DNA from: Dysidea avara
Taxonomy: Eukaryota; Porifera; Demospongiae; Dictyoceratida; Dysideidae
DNA length: 64,000 nt
Assembly: GCF_963678975.1 (NCBI RefSeq)
Contig: NC_089281.1
Location: forward strand, 10,503,277 to 10,567,276
Direction of reading: 5' to 3'
In this document: positions 21,031 through 59,258 of the stretch, one piece after another
How the letters are laid out: each line of letters starts with the position of its first letter
How positions within the stretch are numbered: position 1 is the stretch's first letter
Made by a program: the position numbers and the translations under genes
The notes under the pieces: model-generated
Told to the model about the DNA's origin: nothing
The model's database searches: none
The model's input: the letters and a program-made list of their open reading frames with translations, nothing else

Positions 21031-21174
21031 GTGAGGGAGCATCATTGCATTTCAGTGTTCAGTGTTAAATAAAATAAAATGTGTTTGTGAAACTACAAGT
21101 CTTTTAGATATCTAGATTCCTTGTTAATTTATTATAGCTAGTATACATAAAGTACATACATGCATTTTTTGTAG

Positions 21175-24100
21175 GAAACAGCATTCCTAATGAACGAGAT
21201 GTTAACAATAATATTGTTCCAAACTGTGCCTCAAGGTGGAGAGAGTTAGGAGTAGTTCTAGGTTTGACATCATCACAACTTGACATAATCAGTGTTGACC
21301 ACCCTAACAGTTGTGAAGAGAGATGTAGGGTGATGTTAAGAAAATGGCTGCGTTTGGATCCTTCAGCCACTTGGAATAAATTGGCTGATGCTGTAAGCAC
21401 CACCCATTCCTTGACTAATAGTGCTACAGAAGGTAGGTGTGTGAAATATATTATATGTATATGTAGAGGAGCACTATTGTCCATAGCTCCCTGCATTTTG
21501 TCATCATATAATTTATCTAGAAACTAATTAAAAGATATTTCAGGAATGTCTGTCATTTTACTGTGTACACTAGACTTTGTTTTGAAATATTGTGGCACTG
21601 ATGTTGCTCTACATGATATACATATTGTTGTTATTCTACCCATGTATTAAGTATACATTGCTTATTCTGTTGAGGAGCATAATGTGAGTTGTTGTCATTA
21701 CGCATATGTTTTATCCCAAGTGTTGTTAACATATGGGTATTTGATCTAGATATATCTTCAATTAATGCAGCAGTTTATGCATAACAGGATAGTAAAACAA
21801 ATTTAAATGTTGCTTTAGTTCCTGAGTATACACTGCACACTTTTATCCTACACTATACCCATTCTGTAAAATCCTAAATTTTCAGCTTTGGTCCAGCATG
21901 CATGGTAGCTACAGCGATGGGGTATAGGGACATGCTTCCTCATGGAGAATTCATGGCAAGATTGAGTCCAAAGGCACAATAATCACAATAGCAGGAAACA
22001 AGGTATCTAACTACTCTTTTAGAATATTTGAATGCTCTATTAAGGTATCTCAATGTTTTTACATAGATTATAACAGCAGCATGTAGCACTGTAGGTTGAG
22101 AAAGTTTCTAATAGTCACAAAGTTACATTTGAGGTAGCCTATTCAATGTCATTGCAGCTTGTATTGCACTATCATGTCTATGAAATGCATAGCAAAATTG
22201 TGTAACAAAATTTTGCGATAAAGATACTTTGTAGTCTTAGATTATAGTGGTATTCAAATATGAACAAGAGCAGAGGCAGTACCATGCACTGGTCTGGTTA
22301 ACCTGACCACTTTGTGAGACTTAATTGGTGTGTTGATTTATACCGCACATCCAGAAATGTTTGTGGGAAATGTGTTTTTGTGGTTGGTACACTGTAGTTA
22401 CCCACCATTTGGGTACTTCATTTAGTGTCTGTTGAATGATAGCTACGTTTGCAGGAGAGGGAGGGAGGCAGGGGAAGAGGGGAGGGAAGGAGGGGAGAGA
22501 TGCTATTATGTGTCTTAAATTTTTATAGTCAGTCTAACTGTGAAATTGCATGTGAAACAAAATTATGCTGAAATTTAAATTGGAATGCTAGTTGTAGGTG
22601 TTGAATAGCAATCTAAACTATGTCATTATTGTGTGACACACAGTGTAACTGGTTTTTTTATGTTCTATAGTGACAACAGTCTCCCTGTTGTCCTGTCATG
22701 TGAAAGGAGTCTACATACAAACAAGGTTTGATATTGGGGAGGATACTTGGCCTCCTGAACAACCTAAAGATTTTACTCCAGTAGTGTTAATGTACTACGA
22801 AGAACAGCCTACATTAGAACATGCTACAGCAATTACTGAAGCACTTCACACTGGGGATATTACTCATGTCATATCTGTTGATAATGGTCAACTACTTCCA
22901 CAACCTTTCGCAGTGGATAATTATCACGTTTTGAGAGAGATCCATAAAACTAGCAAAGTAACAAGAAATGTGGCTGATATTTTGGTGTCCCTGGAACTGA
23001 GTAGTAGCGGACCACCAACAATCTTAATCGAAGGTGCACCTGGTATTGGTAAGTCAATTCTTATGAAAAACATTGCATATAACTGGGCTAAAGGAGAAAT
23101 GTTAGTTCAATATGAACTCCTATTGTTGGTCTGTCTCAGGGACCCCAGAATTCATACATTATCTTCCATTGAAGAGCTACTCCAATCTTTTTATGAATAC
23201 AGGACAGATGCCACTTCCCTGACAGCTTGTGCTAAAATTATTTGTCAAGATAATGGAAAATCCCTTGTTTTACTTTTGGATGGTTATGATGAACTGCCTG
23301 AGGATTTGAGAAAAAATAGTTTAATAGCTAGTATACTAAATCGTCAGGTATTACCAGAATGTGGTTTGATTGTGTCCTCTCGTCCTCATGCCTCTCTTGA
23401 TCTTCACAATAAGGCAACTCATCAGATTGTTATTCTTGGCTTCACTGAAAAGGAACAAGAGCACTTCATTCGGCAATCACTGAATAACCAGCCTCACAAA
23501 ATATCCCAACTCATCAAGCATCTCCAGCAACATATGATGATCAGCAGCCTATGTTTCACACCATTTTATATGACTGTGCTACTCTTTCTTTACAAGCAAG
23601 GAGTTCTTTTGCCAAGCAATACTACAGAATTGTACAGCCTTTTTATTTGTATTACTATCTGCCAAAATCTTGCCAAATATGGTATCACCATGACACAAAC
23701 TGTCACAGATCTTTGTGATTTTCCAGACCCTTGTGACAAAATTATTGAACAATTGTCTAAACTTTCCCTACATGCATTGAACAACAACCAACTTATTTTC
23801 ACTTCTGAACAAATTAAAGCTTTCTGCCCACAAATTCAAGACACACCAGCAACAATTAATGGCTTTGGACTTTTGCAAGTTGTGGATCATGTTGGCATTT
23901 TTCAAAAAATAAGAACTTTTAATTTCATTCACTTTTCAGTACAAGAATTTCTTGCTGCTTATCGTGTTGCTCATCTTCCACCACAGGAGGAGCTCTGTGT
24001 CCTTGAGGAGTATTTCTGGAGTGGTATTCATTATAATATGTTCAATATTTACATTGCACTTACTAAAGGACAAAGTCTTCCATTTAAAAAGTTTCTTTGC

Positions 24101-24961
24101 AATGGAAATGACACAATTCTCATTGATGATAAATTCTTAGATAAGGATTTTATGAAAGTTCGTCTCTACCAATGCTTCTATGAAGCCCGTGATAAAAGGA
24201 TGTGTTATATTATTGAGGAAAAATTTTGTAATAAAATTTTATGCTTAGCAGGCACTATGCTGTCACTCAATGTCATACAGGCAATCACAACATCACTGAC
24301 TTGCTCATCTATAAAGCATTGGAGAGAGCTCCAGTTGAGTAAGTGTTCCATACATGATTCTGGAATTAGATTACTACATCGTAGTCTGAATGGTAGTGGA
24401 GTTATTATTGACCAAATATGGTTGTATAATAATGGTCTTACATCATCTTCAGATGGTCTGCTTTGTGATATAGTAAATAACTGTAAAGTGAAGGTTCTGG
24501 GCATTAGTGAAAACCAAGGTGTTGGAGAAACAGATAAATTGGTAGCAGAGTTGCTAACACACTCATCCTGTGTGCTAGAGACAATCCACATGAGTTATAA
24601 CAAGTATTCAACTACCACTTGGGTATTTCAGCTCTTTACTTCTCTAATGACCAATAAATCACTGAAGGTTCTTGTGATTGTGGGTAATAATATTAATGAT
24701 GAAGGGTGTAGTATTATTAGCAAAGCTTTAACAGTTAATAACACCCTGAGAGCTTTGTACATGTGGGGTAACCCAATCTCAGGAGAAGCCTGCCAAGACA
24801 TTGTTGGTACTCTTGCGGACAATGATAGATTACAACTGCTAGTGCTCCCAAAGTTTAATGAAGGTGTTACCAAAACAATCCTTTTACTACAAAAAATAGT
24901 TAATGAAAAACGAAGTAACAGAGGATGTAATATAAAGATGGAAATTTGCTTTTCAAAATAG
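21175..24961 (+). CDS. NLR innate immune receptor: Death-NACHT-LRR (5' end not found)
   Basis: Two exons fit together: 21175-21432 and 22671-24961, both bounded by GT-AG and joined in phase 1. The GTG at 22670 is therefore not a start; it is the intron's last base plus exon sequence. Exon 1 encodes a Death-fold domain (SRWRELGVVLGLTSSQLDII, RVMLRKWLRLDP, TWNKLADAV). Exon 2 (763 codons) holds a NACHT NTPase: Walker A GAPGIGKS at residues 122-129 of that exon, Walker B LLLDGYDE at 201-208, sensor-like LIVSSRPH near 233-240, and a winged-helix region FIHFSVQEFLAAY near 430. The C-terminal about 200 residues carry leucine-rich repeats of the NLR type. Such proteins oligomerise on ligand sensing in the cytosol; partners are unknown. 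Exon 1 opens in phase 2 so at least one upstream exon with the Met is missing. Confidence 0.9.
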
Positions 24962-27162: not shown

Positions 27163-30100
27163 TCATTGAAATTCATAAGCAAAACCAATAGAGTGTTCTT
27201 CATTGACAACAGCATGTCCCCAGTTATCAGGAATGTACAACACGTCACCTGGTAATTGTATACATTCTATAACATCAGTGTTATTATAATGAGTGATCCA
27301 ATCCTGTACATGTTGGATACTAAAGAATGCTTTGTTGGGTGGCCACAAGTACCAATGCTTTACTCCATACACTAAACCATTGATGGCATCTCTGTGGAAA
27401 TGTGGAGGTGATCCTGACCCTTTCGGACCTATGCAGTTGATATAATAGTGATGGTTTTAGGACAGTATAAACACCACAAGCCTACTAACTACAAGATACA
27501 TGGGTGCAATAACATAATTGATCCATTACTTATACTGACCTAATATAAACTGACTAAGACTAATAGAAAAGTTAGACAACATCTTTGGTACAGGAGCATC
27601 TGATGCTAAATTAGAGTATTGTTGTAGCAAGTGAGCGTCAAACAGATATGGAGGATATCTGTGCGGGAAAATGCAAGACAGGATTATGTAATGGAACAAA
27701 TGTTTACTTACTTCATTACAGCCATCTTGTCAAAATCTTCAATAAACTGGGATAATGTAGTACGATATTTATTGTGAAAACCATATAGTTCAGCATAAGG
27801 AATGTCACTGAGTTTTACAACAATATCACCATACCTATAGTACATATATGGAAATTATTGCCTCTATACTCAGAGTATCTGCACCCAGAATATGCTACTA
27901 GATAATCAACTAAATACCTTTTGATGAAGTCATGTTTCTTCCAGTTAGTCCATGCTGGCCACTCAAATAAAATGTCCTTGAACACTGCAGGCTGATTGTT
28001 AGGATAGTGATACAGTTCAAAATCTTTAAGATCCACAGGACGATAAGTACTAAATAATAACGATAGATTAGTTGTATGCTGTTCACAGTGCCAACAATGT
28101 GTTTGACTACTCCAATAGAGTAATCAGGTTTTATAACACATACATATGTAGCATTGGGTTAAAAAATCTAAATCCTTTGAGCCAGCAATACATCCAACAA
28201 CATCTCTGAGAACAAGAAAGTAGTAATCGTTATTTTGGTTGCCCATCAAAATGTTCTGTGGATTAGGTGATTACAATAATAGTTCAGTACTGCAGCAGTG
28301 ATCAAGAAGCATAGTAGCATATATTTACTACTTTTTTATTATTAAAGAATAACATACCACACATCACACATCTTTCTTCCAATGTAGTAATTAGTGCACC
28401 AGCCACTATCCAAGTACTGATCAATAGCGTAGTCTGTTGCATAGCATTGCTTAGCTGTTTCAAATAATATTATGTTGTTATTTTCACATGTATTTATTTT
28501 GGTTGGTAGAATCAGCCTGGTTGGTATAGTGGACTGTGATTGTAGCTCCATCACAGTTTGATGGTGACCACTATTAGCTGCCATTTGTATTGGTGTTAGT
28601 CCATATTTATTGTGTTGGTGGGTAGGACAACCAACTGTTATCAACATCCTGTGTGTTATGAACATGCAATAAACACTCACGCATCTATGACCTCCAAACC
28701 TAATACACTACTGTAATTTAAATTTATCTTTGCGTAAAAAATGTACAGTTATTTGGGGCTAGAAAAATATCAAATAACTAGTATTAGAATCAAGAGTAGG
28801 GAGCTGACTTCTCGCAGCACTGGAAAAAATATTGTCTGTAATGTTTGGTGTGTTGTAGTTCAAAGGTAATAGCCACACAGGCTGAAACTTTGAACCTTGA
28901 ATTAAACAAAGACATGGCCACAGTTGTATAAAAATAGTTAGAGTAAAATTGTTACTTTAAGTTTTGTATATGAAATTTGTTTCACAACAAAGAAAGAGAA
29001 TTGTGGTACAGACTAACATTAATGTATATACAGTGGTATCTAGATTATCTGGCTTGACAGAGCACAGGATTACTGCCTGCTGCTCAACTAAGGATGTGCA
29101 TTCCAATATTAGAAAGCAAAAAAATCTATCTATAGAGGCTGATTTACTTTTTATGCTGTACTGTAAATACAGTGACTGCTTTATTAGAGTATTTGACGGT
29201 TGTATTAGAGTATCTACTAGACCCACCCCTAGATATGCCACTGTGTGTGTACCTCACTAATTCCAATCTTCCTGAGGCAGCAGCAATATGTAGAATTGTG
29301 TTATGGTGATTATCTAAAATACTTTCACAATGAAAGTGTTTGCCAAGTTGCTCTATAATCATCATTAGGTCACTGTGTCCTATCACTCTAGTGAGGTCCT
29401 CAAGTGAGAGATAATCAAGCTGTAATGACTGAAAATATCATCCATTATTGGCTGTGTAATACATTACTATTAGATATATAGTACATTTATACTTAATAAA
29501 AATAATAAAATGATACTGCATGGGTGTATTATTATCAGTGCATTGACAACTTGCTAGCCACCACAATATCGCTCATACACTTGACAAAACTTGGAGCAAA
29601 GAATCAAACTAGGGTCAAATAATATGGCCTCAAATATTATATGGAGGTATGTATATAATATTATATAACCTAATTAATTAAAGAGGTTGTAAAGTGAATG
29701 TTTGGAACCTATTTTGTGTTCACTAAAATGAGGTGGTATTAAAGATATGGCAAAATATTCTAATACATAGCAAATACTACTGTATGGATCAAGATTCTAA
29801 CTAATTTATCTAATTGTGTTGATAAAGTTCTATACTTTAGATATCAGCTACAATGTTTTATTTATTTATTTATTTATTAATGCTTTACAGCACAAGTGCT
29901 GAAGGTCTGTAGGACACCTGGTCCTACAGCCTGCTCAAAGACTTTAGCTACATAAGGTGTGTTTGAAAAGTTGGAGAAAGGAGAAAAAATCCATGACTTA
30001 TCTGAGTTACTCTCTAGAATTCCTATGGATATAATTACATGAAAATAACAAGGAGAAAACATCCTGACCACCTGGTAGACTCCTGTAAGCGTTCGAGCGT

Positions 30101-33100: not shown

Positions 33101-36100
33101 ACCACAAATTTAGAATTTCAGCTTGGCTACTTACTGACTACACCTCAAGCTAGTAACAACTGAGCAGTCTTTATATACTTGAATAGCTACAGTAGCCTAG
33201 CTTGTTCAGTTTTCTTGTCCAGAGGCAACATATTTTGCTACCAAACAGGTTTTAAAGAGCAAAGTCAAAATGTACGTAACTCACTATCAATCACCCTATT
33301 CTGCTAAACACTGTTAGCTACACTGAAACCTCTCTAATCTGACACCTTTGTAATCCAGAATACCTCTATAATCTGACATTGTTTTGTATACCAAAAATAC
33401 TTTTTCTATGTGATACTATCTCAACATCCTTGCTATTCTGACACAGTTTTCTTATCCCAGTGAGTATCAGATTATAGAGGTTTCACTGTACCAGTTTTCT
33501 CCCAAATACAACCAGACACTGTGGAATTTCAAACACAAAACTGCATATTATTTGCTGATATACAACTCCAGGTTCATAACTAAAGTACCATACTTACCTG
33601 TGTAAAATAGAAAATATAGCATTCAGGTGTGATCTCAAGTCCTAATATACGTAGCACTCAACTTTAATTTGTATTGCATTTGCCACAGTGCTTTAACATA
33701 GAATTAACTTTATATATATGCATGGATGAGATTATTTTCCATAAATGCAGTTGAGGTGTGAAGTGGGCTTAATAAACTACTAACTGTACTTTATATATGT
33801 AAATGCCCTGGAACTGTGAAAAGGCTAGTACACTTTATATACATATTTCAAAAATTTGGAATTTATAACTAGAGTAGGGACCATAGCACATCGATAAAAA
33901 GTGCTGAAACAAGCTGGAGTAGTGCACAATATTAAATCACAGTAAAACAATAAGAAGTGTTATATCCCTACTGTAGGGATAGGGATATAACACTTCTTAT
34001 TGTTTTACTGTGATTTAATATCGTGCACTACTCCAGCTTGTTTCAGTACTTTTTATCGATGTGCTATGCCTCTGTAGGGATATAACACTTCTTATCGTTT
34101 TACTGTGATTTAATATCGTGCACTACTCCAGCTTGTTTCAGTACTTTTTATCGATGCCTACTCTAATTATAAATTCCAAATTTTTTGAAATACTTGTTTG
34201 TTAACTTTTTTTGTAAATAATATTATTATGTGCATTTGAAATGGCGCTGCATGCCCCAGCTATATCGTCTGAAAAGTGAAGTATCCATTACGCTTCATTG
34301 TCAGTTATGTTCAACCCATTACGTCCATGAAGAATGCATTGAATGTACTGTGGTATGCCAAAAGGCACCTCTTGGGCTGAAGTGATGTTGAACCGTGAAA
34401 AAATCAAGCCCGTAGCTTTAGCCATTATCGAGTTATGCTTGTCTGAAGGCATCAGGCAGTCAGTCACACAGTCAGTAGAAAATTCCATTTAATAAAAAAA
34501 TTTAAAATTCCATAGCAACTTGTTGAAAGCATTCTGAAAACTTTTTTGGGCTTAGTTTTACCTAACCAATACTGCCTCATCATTGTCTGGAAAATTGAGG
34601 CTGTTTTTTGGATGATTTATTTCATGGGCCATGCCTACTCCTTTGTGGTCCCTACTAATGATACACTTCAATCCAATGGAAAAGTTTAATAAATAATTTA
34701 AAGCATTGCTTTGCTCATAATACGTATATGAAAAATAATAGCACACAGTACTAGGCCTTGATGTTAATATAGCATTCAGCTTTGCCTTGTGCTTATATTA
34801 GTTTCCATGAAACAGTCACAACAATGCTTTAACATAATTATACATAATGCATAGTAATAATTACATGCAACACTGCAACTAACAGAAAATCCACTAATAT
34901 TTGTGACCCAGTCTGGGAAAACTGGTCTTATCACCTATTTAAAAGTATCGAGAAATCAAGTAGCCAACAGCTAAGTTTCCTGCCATTTTAGATAGTTTTA
35001 AACTGAGGTTGACTGTATAAAGTGAGCTCCAAGAGGGGTTGGTGGTGGGAGCCTGGAAGGAGGGCAAGAAGCTGTTTAAAAAGTTGAAGAGGAAGACGTA
35101 GGAATGAATTTGGTCAGGCCATTCAGGTATCAAAACTGGCTTAAATAAAAGAAAATTTATAGCACAGGTCTTTATTCAACACCACGGAGCAGTACAGCCA
35201 CATACAACCACCCCCAGGTTGAACAGAGCTCCATTAAGGCCCCACACCACACATACATATCACCACTGGGCTTGGGAAATGCAGCCAGCAAAGCAGACCA
35301 CTCAAGTCTAGCTGATTTTGATTGTGAAATTTGATAGTTTATTCATGTAGCTTTGTGTTCTTGGTGAAAAATCAAATCTACTGACATGGGTGATAAAACC
35401 GGTTTTTCCAGATCCAGTCACATTTGTATTATACTTAGAATCAGCTGTAGTTATTTCACATTAACAATGTGCTACTACACACTAGAATTTGAATTTTCCA
35501 TGCCCTGGTTTGTACTTGTTAAGCTGACATAGAGCTATGGGAGGTCAATAATGTATGTTAAGCTTAAGTCAGCACCCTGCTCTTAAGTGTTAATGCTGAT
35601 GCACTGAATATCTGTGGAAATCTGGGAATAGAGTTTTTGTTTGAAAGCTTTACATCATCTTACCAGGAAATTCTATATCTTCCTTTTTTTACAGTGGTGT
35701 AACAAATCTCAATTCGGTACAGCATTTTTCTAGCTTACATATCTAAGTGTTTATATAGAACTTACTCTTTTTCATCAGATTCCTTCAAAAGAATATCCAA
35801 TGCTTTCACATTACGATAATGCACAGCATAATATAGTGGACACCCCAGAGTGTGTAGAGTAGTGTGGTTCATTAAATATCCAATTACATCCTAAAGATAC
35901 AATGCAAGTTCCAGCTGTCAAGTATTGTACACAATATGCGGTACATTATAAACTGTAGCTACATATCAATACTGTTTATAAAAGCCTAGCACGAGCATGA
36001 AACCCTATTACATTAGCTAACTAAATACTGGAGCTAAATAAGCAATTAAATACTATGCAAAGACACAATGCAAGTAAGATTTACTCTAACAAGACATACA

Positions 36101-36408
36101 TATAAATGTTGGAAGTCACATACCTCATGTTGTCCTACTAGTTGAAGTGACTGAGTTGCCAAACTATCATGTCTACCCCTCAGTGCATGATGGATGGCAG
36201 TGAATCCACTATCACTGTACAACTGGATCCAGTCCAACTGCTTCTCTACTAACTTGATAATGCTATCAATATCACCATTGTAGGCTGCCTTGTCCAGTTG
36301 GTGTGCAATAAACAGATTACTTCTTGTAGTATTACAAGTTATTATTGTCAAAAGTAGGACTAGACATGATAATCTTTCTGGCATCATGGTGCAGTAATGT
36401 TTGGACAA
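27163..36408 (-). CDS. Signal peptide-ankyrin repeat-JmjC (JMJD8-like) protein
   Basis: Predicted exons: 36408-36124, 35890-35766, about 32017-31810, 29428-29253, 28648 to about 28361, about 28203-28144, 28049-27918, 27834-27712, 27658-27540, 27428-27163; roughly 590 residues. Start: ATG at 36408, or the MM pair at 36387/36384 directly before a signal-peptide-like LSCLVLLLTIITCNTT. At least four ankyrin repeats follow (DSGFTAIHHALRGRHDSLA; LGCPLYYAVHYRNVKALDIL; TNGDTALHAAARS; HNTILHIAAASGRLELVR; KYGLTPIQMAANSGHHQTV). The C-terminal third is a cupin/JmjC fold: SGSPPHFHRDAINGLVYGVK, HWYLWPPNKAF, LPGDVLYIPDNWGHAVVN, TGA at 27165. JmjC proteins are Fe(II)/2-oxoglutarate oxygenases; the HFH in place of HxD/E resembles ER-resident JMJD8 as I recall it, so catalysis is uncertain. 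Exon 3's acceptor and the exon 5/6 junction are the weakest calls; introns hold several foldback elements. Confidence 0.82.
29780..30318. mobile_element. Large foldback element in JmjC gene intron
   Basis: Arms of about 190-220 nt: ACTGTATGGATCAAGATTCTAA (29780) mirrors TTAGAATCTTGATCCATACAGT (30290-30311), then TATACTTTAGATATCAGCTACA, (TTTA)n, ACCTTATGTAGCTAA and GGAGAAAAAATCCATGA all pair. Spacer about 30000-30132 contains GGCTGCAGGTTCAAGGCC, B-box-like. Lies in the intron between 29429 and 31809. Confidence 0.85.
30458..30702. mobile_element. Foldback MITE with AAACAGCCAAGCTGT arms
   Basis: Best preserved copy of the family also at 17234 and 57698: CATGCAAAAACAGCCAAGCT, AAAGCCTGGGTGAAAAAAG, TTGTGAAAT left; ATTTCACAACTTTTTT, GCCCAGGCTTT, AGCTTGGCTGTTTTTGCATG right. 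The 110-residue ORF through it at 30414 is a by-product of the repeat. Confidence 0.75.
31156..31307. promoter_or_regulatory. Cluster of five RFX X-box-like palindromes
   Basis: 13-mers matching GTTRCC-N-RGYAAC closely: 31156-31168 (GTTACCTAGCAAC), 31175-31187 (GTTGCCTAGCAAC), 31192-31204 (reverse: GTTACCTAGCAAC), 31245-31257 (GTTGCTAAGCAAC, imperfect half-site), 31295-31307 (GTTGCCTAGCAAC). X-boxes are the known binding sites of RFX factors in animals. Whether they act as an enhancer in this intron or are part of a repeat is not decided by the sequence. Confidence 0.5.
31479..31647. mobile_element. Palindromic MITE centred on GAGGCGAATTCGCCTC
   Basis: About 65-nt arms: ATACTACAGATATCATGGTA, TTCGAAATATATACCAAAAG on the left and the reverse complement on the right, with the perfect palindrome GAGGCGAATTCGCCTC at the centre (31554-31569). 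Followed by an AT dinucleotide run (about 31663-31683). Non-coding. Confidence 0.8.
32124..32196. repeat. Short palindromes GGGCTACAT/ATGTAGCCC
   Basis: GGGCTACATTTTGTATGTAGCCC followed by GGGCTACATACGAAATGTAGC; similar sequence occurs at 62605-62645 (GGGCTACATTCAGATGTAGCC). Small hairpin repeats of unknown origin. Confidence 0.5.
32690..32791. mobile_element. Hairpin MITE, GCCCATGTTACAAC family
   Basis: GCTTTGCCTGATATGTACGCC pairs with the reverse on the right, ending GCCCTCATGCCCATGTTACAAC. Sister copies at 60810-60924 and 63084-63173 share the GGGC...GCCCATGTTACAAC ends and the conserved TGCCTGAAATAT/TGCCTGATATGT core. About 100 nt, able to fold end to end. Confidence 0.75.
33321..33488. 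mobile_element. Tc1/mariner-pogo-like MITE, TA target
   Basis: CACTGAAACCTCTCTAATCTGA left, reverse-complement of TCAGATTATAGAGGTTTCACTG right; TA dinucleotides flank at 33319-33320 and 33489-33490. 168 bp, non-coding. End sequence is related to the larger element at 37101-38021. Confidence 0.75.
33843..34194. mobile_element. Foldback element with duplicated right arm
   Basis: Left arm 33843-33977 (TTTGGAATTTATAA, CATCGATAAAAAGT, CAAGCTGGAGTAGTGCA, AACAATAAGAAGTGTTATATC) is mirrored twice on the right: at 33983-34062 and again at 34078-34194. The second right arm pairs out to the left tip. The tandem duplication of one arm suggests template switching or unequal exchange at the hairpin. Confidence 0.8.
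34270..34570 (-). repeat. Dispersed repeat family copy
   Basis: Contains CATTACGCTTCATTG, GTTCAACCCATTACG and ATCGAGTTATGCTTGTCTGA, recurring at 38670-38780, 45180-45760, 55080-55340, 55490-55600 and 7770-7870. Copies lie in both orientations and carry no intact ORF; probably SINE- or LINE-derived. Confidence 0.5.
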
Positions 36409-36940
36409 TCCTATATTGCTGATCTATGCCAAGATGATATAAAAACTTATTGGGATTCAATTGTGCATATGATGGCTAATGTAGGAAGTCAGTTCAAAGT
36501 TTATTACATTGTATACTTATATTTGCCTTGCAAATATTAGAGCTGTAGCTAAGTAACTTAGTAGTCTAACAACAACTTTGTATGGTACAGGCTGCTTTTT
36601 TCTGTAAATGGTCAGTCTTTTTTCTGAATAAATATGATCTGACCATAAGAGACTGATCTAACATGGCTCAGTGAGTTTATGGTATTAAAATATTTTGTCC
36701 TTACTATCCACTTTGTTGACTTTGAAATAAGACTGAACATTCAAAGTATGCTTACACCATGGCCAAGCAAAGTTAAATTGTAGTTTATCACCCCCAGCTG
36801 CATGGTGTTTCAAGCAGTATGGTTACTAGCTATATACTCATAGCTAGAAGTGCTATAGGTATATAGGCTGAACCTATCACTTCACAATTTCCTAACCAAT
36901 TATGCAGTATGTCCAACAGCTAATTAAGTGTGTGTTTATG
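36409..36940. other. 5' flank of ankyrin-JmjC gene, no gene seen
   Basis: It should contain the promoter of the minus-strand gene starting at 36408. No recognisable gene or strong repeat before the TG dinucleotide array. Confidence 0.3.
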
Positions 36941-41050: not shown

Positions 41051-44000
41051 ATGCCGCAGCTTCTTGCACTGATGATTCTGTCGAATTTTGTAGCAGTAAT
41101 AGCTCAGAGTCAAGATACTTGTTTTGAACAATGTTCAGCCCTTGTTATTCTTCAGTTGAATGAGCAGTTCTTCTCAGCTCTTCGTAAGGTTGAATCTGAT
41201 GGAGATGTGTGCATGATAAATGGCAACAGGATAGGCCCATATCAGATCAGTGAACAATATTACGATGGAGCTGCAGAATGTAGACCATCACTACAGAACG
41301 AAGGTCAGTAGCTTTATGATACTGGCTCATGATCAGTTCTAGATCAGTTCTAGATCAGTTCTCATGATCAGTTCAGTGAATACTGCGTAACACTTTATAG
41401 CTAATAGCTACAATAGCTACGCATCAACAAGAGCTGCATGCATGCATATGTGTGTGTTTGTGTGAGTGTGACAGATGCGCAAGGTTATCAAACAGTGTAG
41501 CTAGGTTAGAACAAGAGTTTGTGATACTTATAACACTGTGTATTAGACTGCAATCATGCAAAATACTGATTGTTGACCACATGTAAACAGATTTATTCAC
41601 ATGATACAATTCAGTATGTGAAAGTCTATGTGTTATTGTGGTAAGAATATGGTTACAGGTATTTGACAGAACATGCCAGTTTTATAGATACATGCATGGA
41701 CAATACGGACCATATCAAGATAGGTCAACAAAGTAAATGGGTAAAGAATGGCACTTGAATAGAATGGTCTGGTATGAGACCCTCCAAAGCTTGAGCTCAT
41801 TACAAATAAACAACTAGACAAGGGAAATTACCATATTTATACTTGTTTAAATGGTAAATTCTACCACTTCTGATTAGTGGTCTGCATGCCCTCGAAGGTA
41901 TCCATTGTAGATATCAAAAACCATTATTTATATGCATGGATGTATGTACTGCATGGTACTGATAATAAAGGTCAAAAGTATATTCTCCCATAAGAAAGTA
42001 GACAAATACCATATTTGGTATGGTAAGTGATATCTACCAGTTTATCATATGTAGCATACTAATTGAAGCTTTTTGTAGCCAGTGTGTTTACCACAAGAAG
42101 CCATGCATGCTATAATGTGTATGTTGTTTTAATCTTTATATTGCTTTAGACAATGTCTTAGTTATGAAATTCATATTATATTGTAAATCTCATATATATA
42201 AAAACAATTTCAACTCACACCAAATGCCACAAAGCTAATGCATCCTTTAGGGATTGTACCTAGTGTGTAAAGAATCCACACCTTGGCCTAGCCTATGTAC
42301 CAGCCATTCAACTAATATGGTCATATGAAATATGATATATATCCAGCAGATTATATTATTTATTTTACATGTGTGTCAGTGGTAGTGATTGTATGGCTTT
42401 TGTCATATTATTCAGACAGTGTGGCACCTAGAATATTATAATTCATAGCTCACTACATCAACTCTAAATGGATGCTACAAGGTCCTCCCTAACGAGCAGT
42501 AGAACAGTGCAGCACCACTCTACTTTGCTTAAGATCTTGGTAGCAAAATAACAGTGGTTTTACACACTTCCTTTTTCTGGGGAACCTCTGTACTGCACTC
42601 ATAAGGAAGTATCCACACAAAAGGAGAGTTAGGGATTTGAATACTATTAGGATTAGAGCAATAAAAACACTGAGACAATTAACAATCTTATCTACATAGT
42701 AACATACTTTTAATCTCTCATTCAGTCAGCAAAAAGTTAATTGTTATAAGCGTGCTGTACTACACATCTTACAGTTGAAGTAGAGCTAGCTATTTAGTGT
42801 TTTGTATGTGTTTTGTATTGTATGTATTGGTGTGCTGTATATGTGTGTGTGTGCTCTGGTAGGGAAGAATGGCTATTGCCGACTACCATGACATTAAACT
42901 ATGAATCAATCACTACCATGACATTAAACTATAAACCAATCAATCAATCAATTAATCAATCAAATCAGTAGGCAGATTAACTGTAGACATGCTTACATGG
43001 TATGTAAAGCAGTAGCTGTACTTGAACTTATAATTCCCTTGCATCTGTTGTAATAGTTGGAATCTCAGAAGTTATATTTGTGATTTCCTGATTGACTACA
43101 AACCAGCTGGCCTGAACTGGGAAACTGGGAGTATAATATTATTCACAACATCTTGGTGGTAAAATCAATCCCAAACATGTTCAATGATTTGAAGCATTTC
43201 ATGTAAATTAAACTAAAACTCACTAATTTATGGATTTTTCTAACAAGTATGATGCCTTCAGCCAGTACAATTACATGGCCAATGATTTTGACAGAAGTCG
43301 TTGGTGTGCTCTATGAATTAACATCTTTATGCAAGAACATAAGCAAATTAAAAAAGAGAATGGTACATGCATTGTGTCTCCTGCAATGCATTAAAAGGTA
43401 GGTAAGTATTATTTTGTCACCTACCAAAATTATCTGTAGCTTTGAAACCAAACTTTTAACAGTTGAATTGATGTATAGTTGGCACATTTCGCATATGCTT
43501 GAGGTGCAAGTTTAACAATTGCCAATTTCTGTCACTGTGTATGAGATTACTGATAATTAATTGTCATGCTAAAAATTAAACAAGTTGAAGTCATTTAACA
43601 TGTTGTTTGTGAATCAACACCTTACGTGCTAGGCAAGAACGGAAATGAGAAAAAAAACGATGAAGTAATCGAGGTTATACATGGTGTGTTATATGCAAAT
43701 TAATAGACACTTAATTAAACAATGTCTAACTGTGAACCTGTAGACCTTTATCCACTGTTGAGTTTTGCTTGCCTAATGGCATCAGTTAGTCAGTAGGTAA
43801 GTATGATTTCTAGTAATCAATTATTATGCTAGCCAATGCTGCCAAGATTTTGTGAAGGAAATGCTTCTGGTCAATATTTTAGCAGGACAACGCAAACCAT
43901 CGTGATCCTCATGCACTATTAATAATGAATGATACTGCTAAGTTCTTTAGCAGTAAAAATTTGAGACATTTGTAATGTTATTGTACTGCATACAGTGAAC

Positions 44001-47000
44001 AAATCATTTACAGTGTAACTAAGTGACCTTTACAATTTAATGTTTTCATCATACAATTTGTATAATTTTAGGTCACTTTGTTGTAATCCATTTATGTCTA
44101 TGTATTAACTTGACGACTGCTATGTATACGTATGTACCTTGCATAGGAATGAGATGGGGTTTCGTTTGGGGTAAAGACAGCAGGATTTATTCAGAGGAAG
44201 TCATTAAAAGTTACATTTGCAGAGAGGCCATGAGACGTTCTCATAATAACCAGCTGAGTATAAGTGGACTTGCTAGATTGCACAAAGGAGGATTTCAAAA
44301 TTTAAGAAATCGATCACTTTTACCGTTTGGAAACACAGTAACTACAATCTATAATAATGGTGTGTGAAGATATTTACCCATGCCAGTATCTAAAATATAC
44401 AAACTAACTTACTCATACTTAAAAACCCATCATGTCTTTTTAGCAACTTTATATTTTTATGTGTCATGAATAGCATGACACACTGATTAATTATAGCTAG
44501 CACTGCTATTTATTTGAATGCATTTTGTTTACTCTCCCAAAAGCCTTGTAGTGTTAACTGGCTATGTGGTGCATATTAAAGTACTTCTAGCTATTTAGGG
44601 AAAGTAAAAAAAACAACCTTTGCTAGTTGTGCAGTTGAAATATTGTAGCTACTTTTGCTGTGGATCAATATGAAATAAAATTCCAGTTCTCTATTGTGTG
44701 AATTAACCATCTTACAGTTGCAAACTTGGTTATTATGCTATGTTAATTAACTTCCAGGTGGGGTTGCTTGCTGCATGTCCATGCATGTATCTCAATGTTA
44801 CATGTTGCAGCATACTTTGGTAATGTGATGTCTTGGTTGTCTATATATAGTATGAATACTTTTAAAAGAGTCTGGGTATTTTTTGCCTTGTAGTTTTAAA
44901 TTGAGACTGCATAGATGTGGTCTTGATACAAATTGTGCATAATTGCTACATATTGTGTGCACATAATGTCTTCATGTTTGTTGGTCCAGGATCTCAACCA
45001 AATGACACATCAGCAGTGTGTTTTCCAGAATGTAAGCCTGGACAATGTTGTATGGATGGAAAATGTTATTGCTTTGATGCTGATAACAATACAATGAAGG
45101 AGTGCCCAGGTATGGATTACAAAAGTCACTGTATCAATACAGTATGTTAGTACTGTATAGTAGGGATTATAAGGTTTGAGCTTTCTTGCCCAACTCAAAA
45201 CCCAGCCTCACGTTTCCTTCGTAACAGCTTTGCAGCATTAGTTAGACATAACCAAGCACATAAGCAACTGCAAACCCTTCAACAGGTTTCTATGGATTTT
45301 TAAACTGAGTGCTAAATGACTGCCTGCCTGACTGACTAATTCCCCCAACCAAGCATAACTTCACTATGGATAAGGCTCACTGTTCAATGTTGTTTCAGAC
45401 TGAGATGTGCCAACCACAACAGCTATACAATACATGAATCGTGGACCTACCATTGTCCTCCTTTTCTTTCTCCACTACCACATAGGTGTTGATTGGTAGT
45501 GACTCATGGCATGGTTTTAGTGCTTTATTTTCCATACTATGATGTGACTGGATTGATTGCAGAGGTGCTTTTCATACTGTTCTTCATTTGTAACACTGTA
45601 TAATGCGTGGAACATAGCTTGAACTGAAGCAAATGGCCACTACAATTGATAGACATTCAAACGTGATTTCCGTAGTGACTGGATTGATTGCAGAGGTATT
45701 TCTTGTACTGTTCTTGATTTGAAATGCTGTATAACAGGTGGAACAAAGCTGAAAAAGAAGCAGAATGACAACTTCATATTTCAGTCATTGATATATGGGG
45801 CATGCATTCAGTTGCAGGTTAATGTCTGGACCATTCTTTTGTATGTAATGTTAATGATTATGTTATTGCATGTGACAAACAAGTGCATTAGAAAATTTGC
45901 ATTTGACTGGGGCCATTTAAATCTGTAGCTGTATACTAGTTGACATTTAATTTATAGTATAAATGTTAGCTAGTATAGCTGCAGATGTAACTGATTGACC
46001 TCCCTTGTTTCATTACTTTTTTATCCGTAATCCATACTCAAATGTAAAATTTTAGTTTTTCCTTATACTCGTACATTTAACTGTGATTCACAAATAGTTA
46101 CCTTAGTTGGTTTGTCCAGTGCCTAGTGGTAACTAGACAAAGGGCATGCCTCATACTATTGTTTTACAAGTTAATTGATGCCTAGTTGTTGTCATTTTAA
46201 TTTTTACATACAGTGGAGTGTGACACAGCAGGATTGCGACTTGATCTGGTGTTCATTATAGATTCTTCAGGAAGCATTGGCTCTTCCAACTTCAATGCAC
46301 TGAAACAGTCAATAGAAAATATAGTGACGCCACTGACAATCAGTCGTAGAGGCACAAGAGTTGCTGTAGTACAATTCAGCACTGATGTTTCTCTTCTTTT
46401 CAATTTAAATGCACATGAAGAGAAGGAGTCTTTACTCGAAGCTATCCGAAATATACGCTATATTGGTGGGTTTACTGACACAGCTGAAGCACTCAGGCTT
46501 CTAAGGACATCAACGTTAAATGAATTATTGGGAGTACGTCCTGTGGAAGGTATTCCTGTTGCTATTTTGATAACAGATGGCCAGTCTAACAACCCAACAG
46601 ATACTAAGCTACAAGCACTAGCACTTCGTAATAGTACAGAGTTTGAAGTGTTTGTTGTTGGTATAGGCAATAATGTTCGCAAGGATGAGTTGATAAATAT
46701 TGCTGGTGATCCTCAGTCTGTTATACAAATTGAAAACTTTAATGCATCAGAATTTGACAGATTTGAAAATCTATTTGCAGTGCAGGCTTGTAGAGGTAAG
46801 GAAGAAATCCATACATTATTAATATTAAACCTTGAAAGTTTGGTATTTTACTTCCTATACACTGTTTTGCAGCTTCGGATTCTGTTCCACCTGACACTGA
46901 TGTTACTAGTACTGTTGGCCAAGGTGCAGTGGACTATTATCGTGTGCAGATCCCTGATGAAGGGGTTACCTTGAGATTTGATGTGGAGGATGGTAGAGTA

Positions 47001-48503
47001 CTAATATGTGGTTCAAGGGCTAACCGCAATCCTGACTGTCGTGATGCTTCAACATATGAATGGAGGTGTGAAGCAAACTCTTATTGTGATATATATGTGG
47101 CAAGTGAAACCAGAAAACGTCAAGTAGGAACCAGCTTTATTTTTGTCTCTATTGAAGGAATAAATAGAAACAATGAGGTTGTTATAGAGACTATGATGGG
47201 TGATGAAGCTGTTTCTGAAGGTAAGATACCATAATTGGGGTGTATACACCTACTGTGCAAATGTGAATAATCTCAAGGCAATATGTACTGGTTTTGTTCT
47301 CATACTTAACTACATTCAGCCAAACTTACAAATTACGGATAGGTATCGAGCACTTCCATTTCTGTGTCATTAGGACATTTCCTTTTTATAGAAATATTCA
47401 GTGTGTGTTGTGTGTGTGTGTGTTCCATTGTGCACATAATAAACAAGAAAGTTTATAGGAAAAACTCATTTCCAACTTAAATGAATTGAATAAAAAAGAT
47501 TAATTTATCAAATTTAGTCTGACACAATGTGCTGCACATGACATTTCTTGCTACACAGCAAACACTTTCAATGAACTTTTGTTTAATATCACAGTCATGT
47601 CTCTAGTCATCCTAACTGATACAGTGATATTTCATGATGATCCATTATATGAAGTACCAGTCACTCATACTTCAGAGGGAATGGATCCAACTACCACTTC
47701 ATTGTGTTACCAAATACATGGGGAGAGTAATAACTATTACAACTTGATATCTGACACTTGTATACAAGTAAACGTGTTTTATGCTGCCTTTAGTACTAAC
47801 TCAGATGCTGCAAACTACATTAAAGCAATAGGAATCCTAGCTCATGATAGTGGAGGTAGTTGTATTAAGATTGAGTTACAAACTAAACGATGCAAGCTAA
47901 CCATTGATGACTCAAGTCTCAATGGATCCTATAGTCAGAATAAGATAGAAGTTGTTAGTACTGGAAAGCAAAGCTATGAAGTGAATATTCCAAACTGTAA
48001 AGCAACTCAAGGTGATGACCTGAAGTTTAGAATGGCTTGTCAAAAAGTTAGTGATCTAAAAGTGATCCAGTTTTCTGTTATTAGAGGAGGTGGATTAAGA
48101 CCTAGTGCACATGGAATAGTTGGTAAGGAGCAGACAGAGGCCATGAGTTTCAATGTATGTGTATATTACAGGTCAGTTTTGGAACGTACCAATAGATGTG
48201 GTAAAGTATGATGGTAACTACAATAAACCAGTAAACTCAACTTTTCTAGTCACTGTTGATCATAACTCTTCCTCTCGATCATTCATAGCTGAACAACATC
48301 CAGCTACTTGGGATGGAAAGAGGATACAGTGCCTGTATGCTGGTAATGCTCAGGGTGGACCTATCAATGAAGTGGATGTGCCTAATGATCGTGTAATTGA
48401 GGGTGATTATGAGGAATACGAAGTGTCTGGTCTCTTTGAATCTGATTTCCAGTACAATCAGTTTGAAGATGATCAGTGTGCTACAGCTGCCGTCAGTTAT
48501 TAG
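41051..48503 (+). CDS. Secreted i-type lysozyme-von Willebrand A chimera
   Basis: Seven exons, all GT-AG and all six introns phase 1: 41051-41303, 44147-44359, 44990-45109, 46214-46795, 46873-47220, 47559-48122, 48172-48503; about 803 residues. Order: signal peptide (MPQLLALMILSNFVAVIAQ); destabilase/i-type lysozyme (FFSALRKVESDGD with the catalytic-type Glu, NRIGPYQISEQYYDGA, YSEEVIKSY, ARLHKGGF); Cys-rich module (CFPECKPGQCCMDGKCYC); vWA domain with full MIDAS (DLVFIIDSSGSIG, GGFTDTAEAL, ILITDGQSNN); a beta-rich exon (DYYRVQIPDEGVTLRFDVED), PPC-like by shape only; and about 300 C-terminal residues I do not recognise. Family knowledge: i-type lysozymes cleave peptidoglycan and/or isopeptide bonds; vWA binds protein ligands through a metal. 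Inference: secreted bacteria-binding or matrix hydrolase. The second acidic residue usually found before the GPxQI motif seems replaced (ING NRIGPYQI), so hydrolysis may be weakened. Confidence 0.88.
42860..42965 (+). mobile_element. LINE 3' end with (AATC)n tail
   Basis: GGTAGGGAAGAATGGCTATT, then ACTACCATGACATTAAACTAT twice and an AATC/CAAT microsatellite tail. This is the familiar 3'-terminal pattern of CR1/L2-type retrotransposons. Located in the first intron of the lysozyme-vWA gene. Confidence 0.6.
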
Positions 48504-51402: not shown

Positions 51403-52815
51403 TTAGACATAAATTTTACAAAACAGAGTCTCTGAATGAACTAATAAGTCCACTGGAGGACACTTTACAAAGTGACCCTGTGAGGATCTCACTCCTCTAA
51501 TACACTGGATTGCAGAGCGAAGGAGACAAAAAGATAAACAGCATCTAATCCATCCCAAGACAGCTACATATGGTTCTTTCCATTTCTGAGAAAGTAAAAT
51601 AGCCAATCTCTTGTAAAATACAGTGGCTTCATGACCCATTCCTCCTGTAGCAGAAGACACCAATGGGGTAAATGTACTGTGTTCCACTTCTCGGAGTCGT
51701 GACTCATAAGCTCTCTTCTTCAAAGATTCATGTTTCCTGTAGCTTGAGTGAATATTGGATCCTCTGTTGGAAGTTGCTAGTGGATTGAAAACTCTGATAT
51801 CTGTGTAGCAATTCTCAAAATGGCCGCCCCAAAAACCATTCATTGAAATATCCAAACGTGCTCCATCCTCAACATTAGCTGTCTTATATTTAAAAGTCTC
51901 ATCATCCAGTGGCTGCAAATGAGGTTCAACCTCTACATCATGACACACCTCAGTTAAAAGCTCAGCAGTTAGATCCCTCACCTCATTGTGTCGTATTGAG
52001 GGAAACCCACTCTTTGGACATGACAATGCATGATCAACAGAGAATGCACAGCCATGCACATGCACAGTGAGCCGGATGGTGTTCGGGTGGGCAGCCAACC
52101 ATACCGCAATGCAAGAGCATCTTGAAAAGCTGTCTTATGTAAAGAAAAGCCATGTTCTTGTACAGGTAAAGCTGTTAGCCAGCTAGAGGAACCCTTTTCT
52201 TGTGCCAAACCAACAGCCATCTGAAGCCTAGTTGTAAGCTGAGGGAGCAGCTCCTTTGAAAGTGTGGACAAATTAAGCATCTTAGATTCCTTGATTTCTA
52301 TCTTTCGTGAAAGCTGACTACATCTAATATCTGCTCCATAGTTGAAATTCTGTGACAGGATGTGCAGTTGTAATGGTGCTGTAACATACAGGAGGCTGAG
52401 AATTCAGCAGGTGACAAAGAATCAGGAGCAACAATGCCCAAGCTTCCAAATCTAGTTGGCAGGGCAAAAAGTGAACGTTGTAATGTACCAGGAGAGTCCA
52501 GACCAATCAAGGCTGGTATGAACTTTGTCAACAATGCCTTCTCAAGTTTGTCGAAAGAAGACGAAGTGTCAGGAACTGTACGTGATACATACAGCCACCT
52601 ACTAATTAAACCATGAGTGAAAGAAGTGTAAGCAGCATGTGGCTGGGAGATTGCAATAGAAGAAAGTTTGTCAATTTCAGAAATCCAGCAGTCAATTTTA
52701 TCCACAGTAAACTTTTCCACATACTCAGTGGTACTAACTGGAGCACTCAGATGAGGTCTACCATCAGATGTTACATTTACAGTAGTATCACTAAATATCT
52801 CCTTACCAATATGTA
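51403..52815 (-). mobile_element. Non-LTR retrotransposon, 5'-truncated, frameshifted
   Basis: Minus-strand coding fragments in order: GRPHLSAPVSTTEYVEKF and SIAISQPHAAYTSFTHGL (52810-52298, reverse transcriptase C-terminal part); SSWLTALPVQEHGFSLHK and DALALRYGWLPTRTPS (52280-52075); then AFSVDHALSCPKSGFPSIRH, ANVEDGARLDISMNGFWGG and RGVRSSQGH (52098-51403). In intact relatives, as I remember them from sponge, coral and other invertebrate genomes, these form one protein, so frame changes near 52290 and 52085 are disabling. The C-terminal part has an HALSCPKGGF zinc-knuckle-like segment. The palm with the catalytic Asp pair is missing. Ends in an A-rich tail at 51330-51350. Confidence 0.85.
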
Positions 52816-53081
52816 ATTAACCGTAGGCCGCGAATCTTTTGAAATGTACGCATTACATAATCAATTTGAAATGGAGGATTGATTGAAGCTTCCAACATTC
52901 TGGCAGTGCCAAACTATTTATACACAGTTTCACCACTCTTTTTAGGGTCGGGCGCCGCGAGACAAATAATTGGCCTAAAGGTAGTGCTAATTAACGCGTG
53001 CGCCTCCCCAATCTTTTCAGCCGTACGGATGACGAAACCCCGTACCTAATCTCGTGCCCAATAGGCAGTGAACAGTGAACA

Positions 53082-53364
53082 ATGAAGTTCGTGCAGTTGG
53101 TGTGGATGTGGCGTCTGCTGTTGTCGTTTGTTGTATTAAAAGTACTGCACGCCCAGGATTGTACACAAGTTGACGAGAATACCGATATTGGTCCTGGCTT
53201 ATCCAAACAACAACAAGCAACCTTCTTCGGCGTTCTCCGTAAAGCAGAATCAGATGGAAATCTTTGCAAAGTCAGCGAAGATGGAAGACTGATTGGTCCT
53301 TACCAGATTAGTCAAGAGTTTTACGATGCCGCCGTGACAGCAACTCCGAGTTTGAAACTAGGAG
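53082..53364 (+). CDS. Second i-type lysozyme, first exon only
   Basis: ATG at 53082 opens a signal-peptide-like start (MWRLLLSFVVLKVLHAQ) then TFFGVLRKAESDGNLCKVS and DGRLIGPYQISQEFYDAA, clearly paralogous to exon 1 of the lysozyme-vWA gene (FFSALRKVESDGD; RIGPYQISEQYYDGA). The putative donor at 53365 is in phase 1, as in the paralogue, but it is a weak GTTGGC. Unlike the first copy this one keeps an Asp before RLIGPYQI. No matching exon 2 or vWA exon is seen in the remaining 10.6 kb, so either the intron is very long or this is a truncated tandem copy. Confidence 0.78.

Positions 53365-58821: not shown

Positions 58822-59258
<437 letters not shown>

Follow-up and report, generated by a model that had tools for sequence, protein, structure and literature searches.

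A Dysidea avara gene that joins a lysozyme-like domain to a von Willebrand factor A domain in a predicted secreted mosaic protein

A seven-exon mosaic gene

The analysis of a 64,000-nucleotide stretch of the Dysidea avara genome (contig NC_089281.1, positions 10,503,277 to 10,567,276 of the forward strand; hereafter the window) confirms a mosaic gene whose seven exons join a lysozyme-like domain to a von Willebrand factor A (vWA) domain. The best explanation, which we hold at about even confidence, is a secreted mosaic protein, tethered by its vWA domain, whose lysozyme-like domain acts on bacterial peptidoglycan. The vWA identity is solid; the lysozyme fold, the peptidoglycan activity, the matrix binding and the biological role are what we infer from the evidence below. 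The exons, in window coordinates, are as follows.

41051 to 41303, + strand: exon 1, with the start codon, a signal-peptide-like N-terminus (about residues 1-18) and the first half of the lysozyme-like domain
Within 41051 to 41303, + strand: exon 1 motifs, the candidate catalytic Glu48 and GPYQI at residues 62-66
44147 to 44359, + strand: exon 2, with the second half of the lysozyme-like domain and ARLHKGG at residues 127-133
44990 to 45109, + strand: exon 3, a small Cys-rich module with 8 Cys in residues 156-200
46214 to 46795, + strand: exon 4, the vWA domain, residues 206-382
46873 to 47220, + strand: exon 5, about 116 residues with 4 Cys and strands in low-confidence models
47595 to 48122, + strand: exon 6, with 6 Cys and strands in low-confidence models; in isoform X3 the exon stops at 48118
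48172 to 48503, + strand: exon 7, the C-terminal region and the stop codon

Splicing the + strand of the window at these borders yields a coding sequence of 2376 nucleotides, open throughout and encoding 791 residues plus the stop codon, and all six introns are of the GT-AG type and lie in phase 1. The sequence-only reading had claimed a single protein spliced in frame from seven exons with phase 1 introns throughout, and both claims were borne out. In its two alternative frames the spliced sequence has 59 and 107 stops, and at the stop rate of the first 20 kb of the window (0.063 per codon) a run of 791 codons free of stops has a chance probability of about 5e-23, a figure that is overstated by the prior choice of the exons for openness. 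GC content by codon position is 0.50, 0.39 and 0.28, and, reading upstream from 41051 in the exon 1 frame, a stop is reached before any Met. The proposed signal peptide was likewise upheld, as the N-terminus is signal-peptide-like and forms the most hydrophobic stretch of the protein (19-residue mean 1.67, with 1.27 and 1.22 for the next stretches elsewhere). This N-terminus predicts secretion of a protein of about 86 kDa, signal peptide and glycans not counted.

An independent annotation places both halves in one product, since residues 1-681 of the spliced protein are identical to a public Dysidea avara entry (P0001, "uncharacterized protein isoform X3", 687 residues, in a cluster of 7 member sequences), and only the last splice differs. 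Starting intron 6 at 48119 instead of 48123 reproduces P0001 exactly, through a frame shift and an early end. The two intron 6 donors, four bases apart within 48115-48128, would lead to the 791-residue form and to the 687-residue isoform with its other tail. The "isoform X3" label suggests a transcript-informed prediction. When residues 20-200 were searched against about 5.8 billion proteins, restricted to lengths 0.55-1.75 times that of the query and to sequences with short words in common, there were 199 candidates, of which P0001 alone matched at E up to 1. The same type of protein search with residues 160-791 returned, besides the protein itself, 1 match among 7,997 scored candidates. The joining of lysozyme-like and vWA parts in one product is thus borne out by the splice, by Pfam and by P0001.

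The vWA domain

Residues 206-382 match Pfam VWA (PF00092) at 134.8 bits (E 4.7e-39; profile positions 1-171 of 174), far above the gathering score of 23.8 bits, and the domain carries the motif residues D212, S214, S216, T283 and D317, which we take to be the DxSxS, T and D of a metal ion-dependent adhesion site (MIDAS) with the roles presumed for it. The vWA domain with MIDAS residues that had been proposed from the letters alone therefore stands. Three vWA-type matches were found in NCBIfam, all far below their cut-offs. Among the best 60 of 109 distinct PDB sequences matched at E up to 1e-4, the leading ones were collagen VI alpha 3, PTMP1 and collagen VI alpha 2; PTMP1 and collagen VI also head the Foldseek list of the first of two AlphaFold models. 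The vWA domains of collagen VI and of the mussel byssus protein PTMP1 (PDB 9han, 4igi, 4cn8) share the domain type and the MIDAS residues with the sponge protein, to which their Foldseek rows are 23-28% identical. Unlike them, the sponge protein has one vWA copy, a lysozyme-like partner and no collagen repeats.

As a separate observation, the 1137-residue protein P0011 appears by eye to alternate three vWA domains with chitin-binding-type modules; its precomputed Pfam matches include PF00092 and PF01607, and its source label reads Mg-chelatase subunit.

Relatives of the lysozyme-like domain

Of 16 candidates in a search for the 137-residue domain, nine proteins matched at E up to 10, with E from 7.6e-31 to 7.7e-9, and each is about the size of one exon (81-110 residues). 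Five correspond to exon 1 (P0002, P0003, P0004, P0006 and P0010) and four to exon 2 (P0005, P0007, P0008 and P0009). The longest contig is of equal length for P0004 and P0005 (7356 bases) and for P0006 and P0007 (16113 bases), and from these equal lengths each pair may represent the two exons of one gene. Several relatives seem to end in read-through into donor sites at the positions of the window gene, which would make the exon borders common to the family. P0007 and P0008, which end in -LAGM, were considered as stand-alone enzymes and rejected: their final G-M matches what translation through a phase 1 donor, GTATG, would yield, as P0005 and P0006 suggest at their own exon ends. Such exon-sized fragments show neither fusion nor stand-alone forms of the relatives.

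A further member lies in the window itself, about 4.6 kb downstream of the gene.

53082 to 53364, + strand: first exon of a second lysozyme-like gene, a paralogue, which opens with a signal-peptide-like segment and carries KAESDG...IGPYQI

It is 49% identical to the gene over 53 residues (tblastn E 1.1e-12; phmmer 4.3e-12), and a profile search of the window recognised no further exons of this copy. Alignments were built from these sequences: A4 from the five exon-1 relatives and both window exons, A3 from the four exon-2 relatives and the window exon, and the joint alignments A1 and A5, the latter without P0008. A further alignment, A6, excludes P0007, P0008 and P0011. With A4, viral and prokaryotic collections gave 19 and 28 pattern matches, none of which was confirmed by tblastn, and hence a close bacterial donor is not indicated at the sensitivity of these searches. 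PHROGs returned two weak matches, to which it assigns no function.

A lysozyme-like domain related to the i-type family

Searched by itself, the domain has Destabilase (PF05497) as its best Pfam family (22.5 and 22.8 bits; E 1.4e-4 and 1.1e-4), with an alignment that spans residues 54-141. Profile searches of 177,635 PDB sequences with A1 and with A5 each gave 2 matches at E up to 10, and leech destabilase (PDB 8bbu) led both times (E 0.087 and 0.067). In a direct hhalign comparison of A5 with an 86-residue stretch of 8bbu, the E-value is 1.3e-5 for this one comparison, with a probability of 80.6. That score was reached by 0 of the 300 shuffles, out of 1000, on which hhalign was run, nor was it reached by the reversed sequence; in the corresponding hidden Markov model (HMM) control the best shuffle attained 4.9 bits against 16.5 for the real sequence (scores for 889 of 1000 shuffles). 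Both controls used an 8bbu stretch pre-picked as the best PDB hit, so that the likeness goes beyond shuffled composition, yet the test is biased. The domain and 8bbu have the motifs GPYQI and ARxHxGG in the same order, and the signal-peptide-like start is a further trait in common with leech destabilase and the i-type enzymes (GH22i).

Glu48, within KVES, and the residues G62-P63-Y64-Q65 are invariant across all 7 exon-1 sequences (the gene, the second copy and five relatives), H130-K-G-G is kept in 5 of 5 exon-2 sequences, and the latter set has 31 invariant positions. In both AlphaFold models, which were made for P0001 and hence lack the regular exon 7 reading, Glu48 sits in a helix (residues 38-50 and 39-49) that is followed by a two-stranded hairpin, the order known from lysozymes. 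Block means of the predicted local distance difference test (pLDDT) for this helix and hairpin are low, about 30-40, in the first model and 67-76 in the second; they reach 57-86 for the vWA part (residues 201-390) of the first and 57-77 for residues 1-90 of the second. Leech destabilase has 14 Cys and the catalytic residues Glu34 and Asp46 (PMC10126035). Glu48 lies outside the HMM-aligned stretch and may, by motif, be the counterpart of Glu34. If, as we infer, Ser51 of that paper is the Ser at the start of the 8bbu stretch, the Glu and GPYQI are 19 residues apart in destabilase and 14 here, and the Asp46 loop would be about five residues shorter.

Several results weigh against the proposed reading. 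The Destabilase gathering score of 26.2 bits is reached neither by the domain nor by the full protein (17.0 bits); only 2 of the 10 members of A5, most of which are half-domain fragments, match the family (P0005, taken singly, gives 12.8 bits); and the precomputed Pfam list of P0001 contains vWA families only. Both PDB E-values for 8bbu exceed the usual threshold of 0.001, and no lysozyme was recovered from PDB with the single sequence or with a profile of A4. The domain has 5 Cys in residues 19-156 as opposed to 14 in leech destabilase, and there is no invariant second acid: the protein itself has D50 and D52, but of the 7 exon-1 sequences 5 have an Asp at position 50 and 3 at position 52. 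Both models are of low overall quality (mean pLDDT 51.1 and 44.2), and no lysozyme is found among the structural matches listed (50 in each of three Foldseek lists), most of which reflect the vWA part. A second full-length fusion did not turn up in a search restricted in protein length and to sequences with words in common, and the D. avara genome (PMC12909245) and transcriptome (PMC11229196) papers contain neither "lysozyme" nor "VWA" in their main text, as far as it was accessible. Separately, glucose-6-phosphate dehydrogenase rows in the Foldseek output were set aside as an artefact of the poorly modelled vWA part.

We describe the domain as lysozyme-like and apparently i-type-related rather than as an established i-type member, because of the score below cut-off, the number of Cys and the lack of an invariant second acid. 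The earlier name "i-type lysozyme" was accordingly an overstatement, and of the two families expected in a Pfam check only VWA came through. Compared with leech destabilase, the sponge protein also has an extra vWA domain and further domains.

Catalysis or binding

The same divergence raises the possibility that the lysozyme-like domain is catalytically dead and serves as a peptidoglycan- or glycan-binding head, in which case the protein would act in recognition or agglutination, while its vWA and C-terminal domains would serve for adhesion or assembly. We consider this rather unlikely: the lack of an invariant second acid, the few Cys and the drift below the Destabilase cut-off all speak for it, but retention of Glu48 and GPYQ in every exon-1 sequence would be unexpected if catalysis were lost. 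Goose-type lysozymes and lytic transglycosylases need mainly one Glu, which likewise argues against a dead domain.

The linker and C-terminal regions

The Cys-rich module of exon 3 has no Pfam match, and neither has exon 5, whose best PDB match is at chance level (E 0.87). For exons 6 and 7, PDB matches were also at chance level and no Pfam family exceeded its cut-off; the two exons are weakly similar to each other (E about 0.4-0.5). The C-terminal domains are probably beta-rich, to judge from the low-confidence models.

Across exons 6 and 7, residues 573-735 match ITI_HC_C at 19.1 bits (E 0.0011), below its cut-off of 27. In inter-alpha-trypsin inhibitor heavy chains (ITIH) a vWA domain is followed by a region of this family, an order echoed here by the weak match, and ITIH1 chains occupy ranks 11, 16 and 17 of the Foldseek list for the second, poor model. 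An ITIH relative that gained a lysozyme-like domain, with an ITI_HC_C-like C-terminus coupling it to matrix glycans, nevertheless seems quite improbable: the C-terminal match stays under its cut-off and vanishes when exons 6 and 7 are taken singly, Pfam gives no VIT domain at E up to 10, and the vWA part by itself may account for the ITIH1 structural matches. The lysozyme-like head further separates the sponge protein from these chains.

Possible isopeptidase activity and the integrity of the gene

Leech destabilase, the nearest solved sequence, is described as an isopeptidase with a proposed triad of Ser51, His112 and Glu34 in the same account (PMC10126035), which opens the possibility that the sponge domain acts on host protein cross-links and remodels the sponge matrix instead of attacking bacteria. 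His130 and Glu48 are plausible counterparts, by motif, of two of the three triad residues, and a matrix-type vWA partner would suit such a role. However, residues 50-61, just before GPYQI and where Ser51 would be expected, contain no Ser, and we regard this function as very improbable.

That adjoining lysozyme-like and vWA genes were wrongly merged by both the sequence-only reading and the public annotation is extremely improbable: intron 3 is about 1.1 kb long, the joining is known here from genome sequence and annotation, and the joined order was seen in no second species in one word-limited protein search, but P0001 covers both parts, exons 2, 3 and 4 join in frame and in the same phase, exon 2 has no stop codon ahead of its donor site, and the already slight probability was lowered a little further because P0007 and P0008 are not evidence of stand-alone enzymes.

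Proposed function and place among animal lysozymes

In the reading that we favour, of a tethered protein directed at bacteria, the N-terminal domain would be a divergent member of the lysozyme superfamily whose nearest known family is the i-type (destabilase), and the Cys-rich linker, the collagen-VI/PTMP1-like vWA domain and the probably beta-rich C-terminal domains would complete the protein. The vWA domain, perhaps together with the C-terminal domains, would fasten it through the metal site to collagenous matrix or another surface ligand, and the lysozyme-like domain would cut, or at least grip, bacterial peptidoglycan locally, for defence or digestion. The tethered antibacterial or symbiont-handling function that the sequence-only reading suggested is plausible as a proposal. 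A more far-reaching proposal, towards which we remain somewhat sceptical, is that Dysidea-type sponges possess an undescribed, multi-copy lysozyme family apart from the i- and g-types, exon-shuffled, in this gene at least, onto a collagen-VI-like vWA domain to give an enzyme parked in the mesohyl that would sort, digest or restrain bacteria.

To our knowledge, i-type lysozymes occur as stand-alone or tandem domains. No paper on the fusion was found in the literature searched, mostly without subscription papers, and within what was searchable the lysozyme-like family seems undescribed. A look for the same domain order in other sponges, as the sequence-only reading had proposed, gave no second example in one word-limited protein search. 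A 2026 paper states that early branching animals are without non-g-type lysozymes save for one i-type report from Suberites, which it treats as perhaps contamination or late acquisition (PMC12855814); another likewise gives Suberites as the sponge that has an i-type lysozyme, and it notes that unicellular holozoans have lysozymes of no assigned class (PMC11576321). The Suberites domuncula enzyme is, like the present domain, a sponge lysozyme placed with the i-type in these accounts (PMC12855814, PMC11576321). Because it is called most similar to deuterostome i-type lysozymes (PMC12855814), it is, by description, probably outside the Dysidea avara family. The presence in a sponge of a lysozyme-like family that is divergent and contains introns, with an adhesion-joined form, would change the picture of early-animal lysozymes, and the fusion is a specific candidate for the means by which sponges keep bacteria in place or digest them there.

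Other features of the window

The remaining features of the window lie outside the gene.

21138 to 21527 and 22649 to 24961, + strand: a death-domain exon and, after it, a long NACHT-LRR exon, by Pfam
28345 to 28707 and 36049 to 36423, - strand: ankyrin-repeat-like frames, the first below the Pfam cut-off and the second just above
51403 to 52816, - strand: open frames like a decayed retroelement
58822 to 59258: a perfect tetranucleotide array

The exons at 21138-24961, when joined, probably form one NLR-type immune receptor gene. For 51403-52816, where the resemblance to a retroelement is our assumption, two frames tested against Pfam gave no match at E up to 0.01. The array at 58822-59258 consists of about 109 copies of GCAG.

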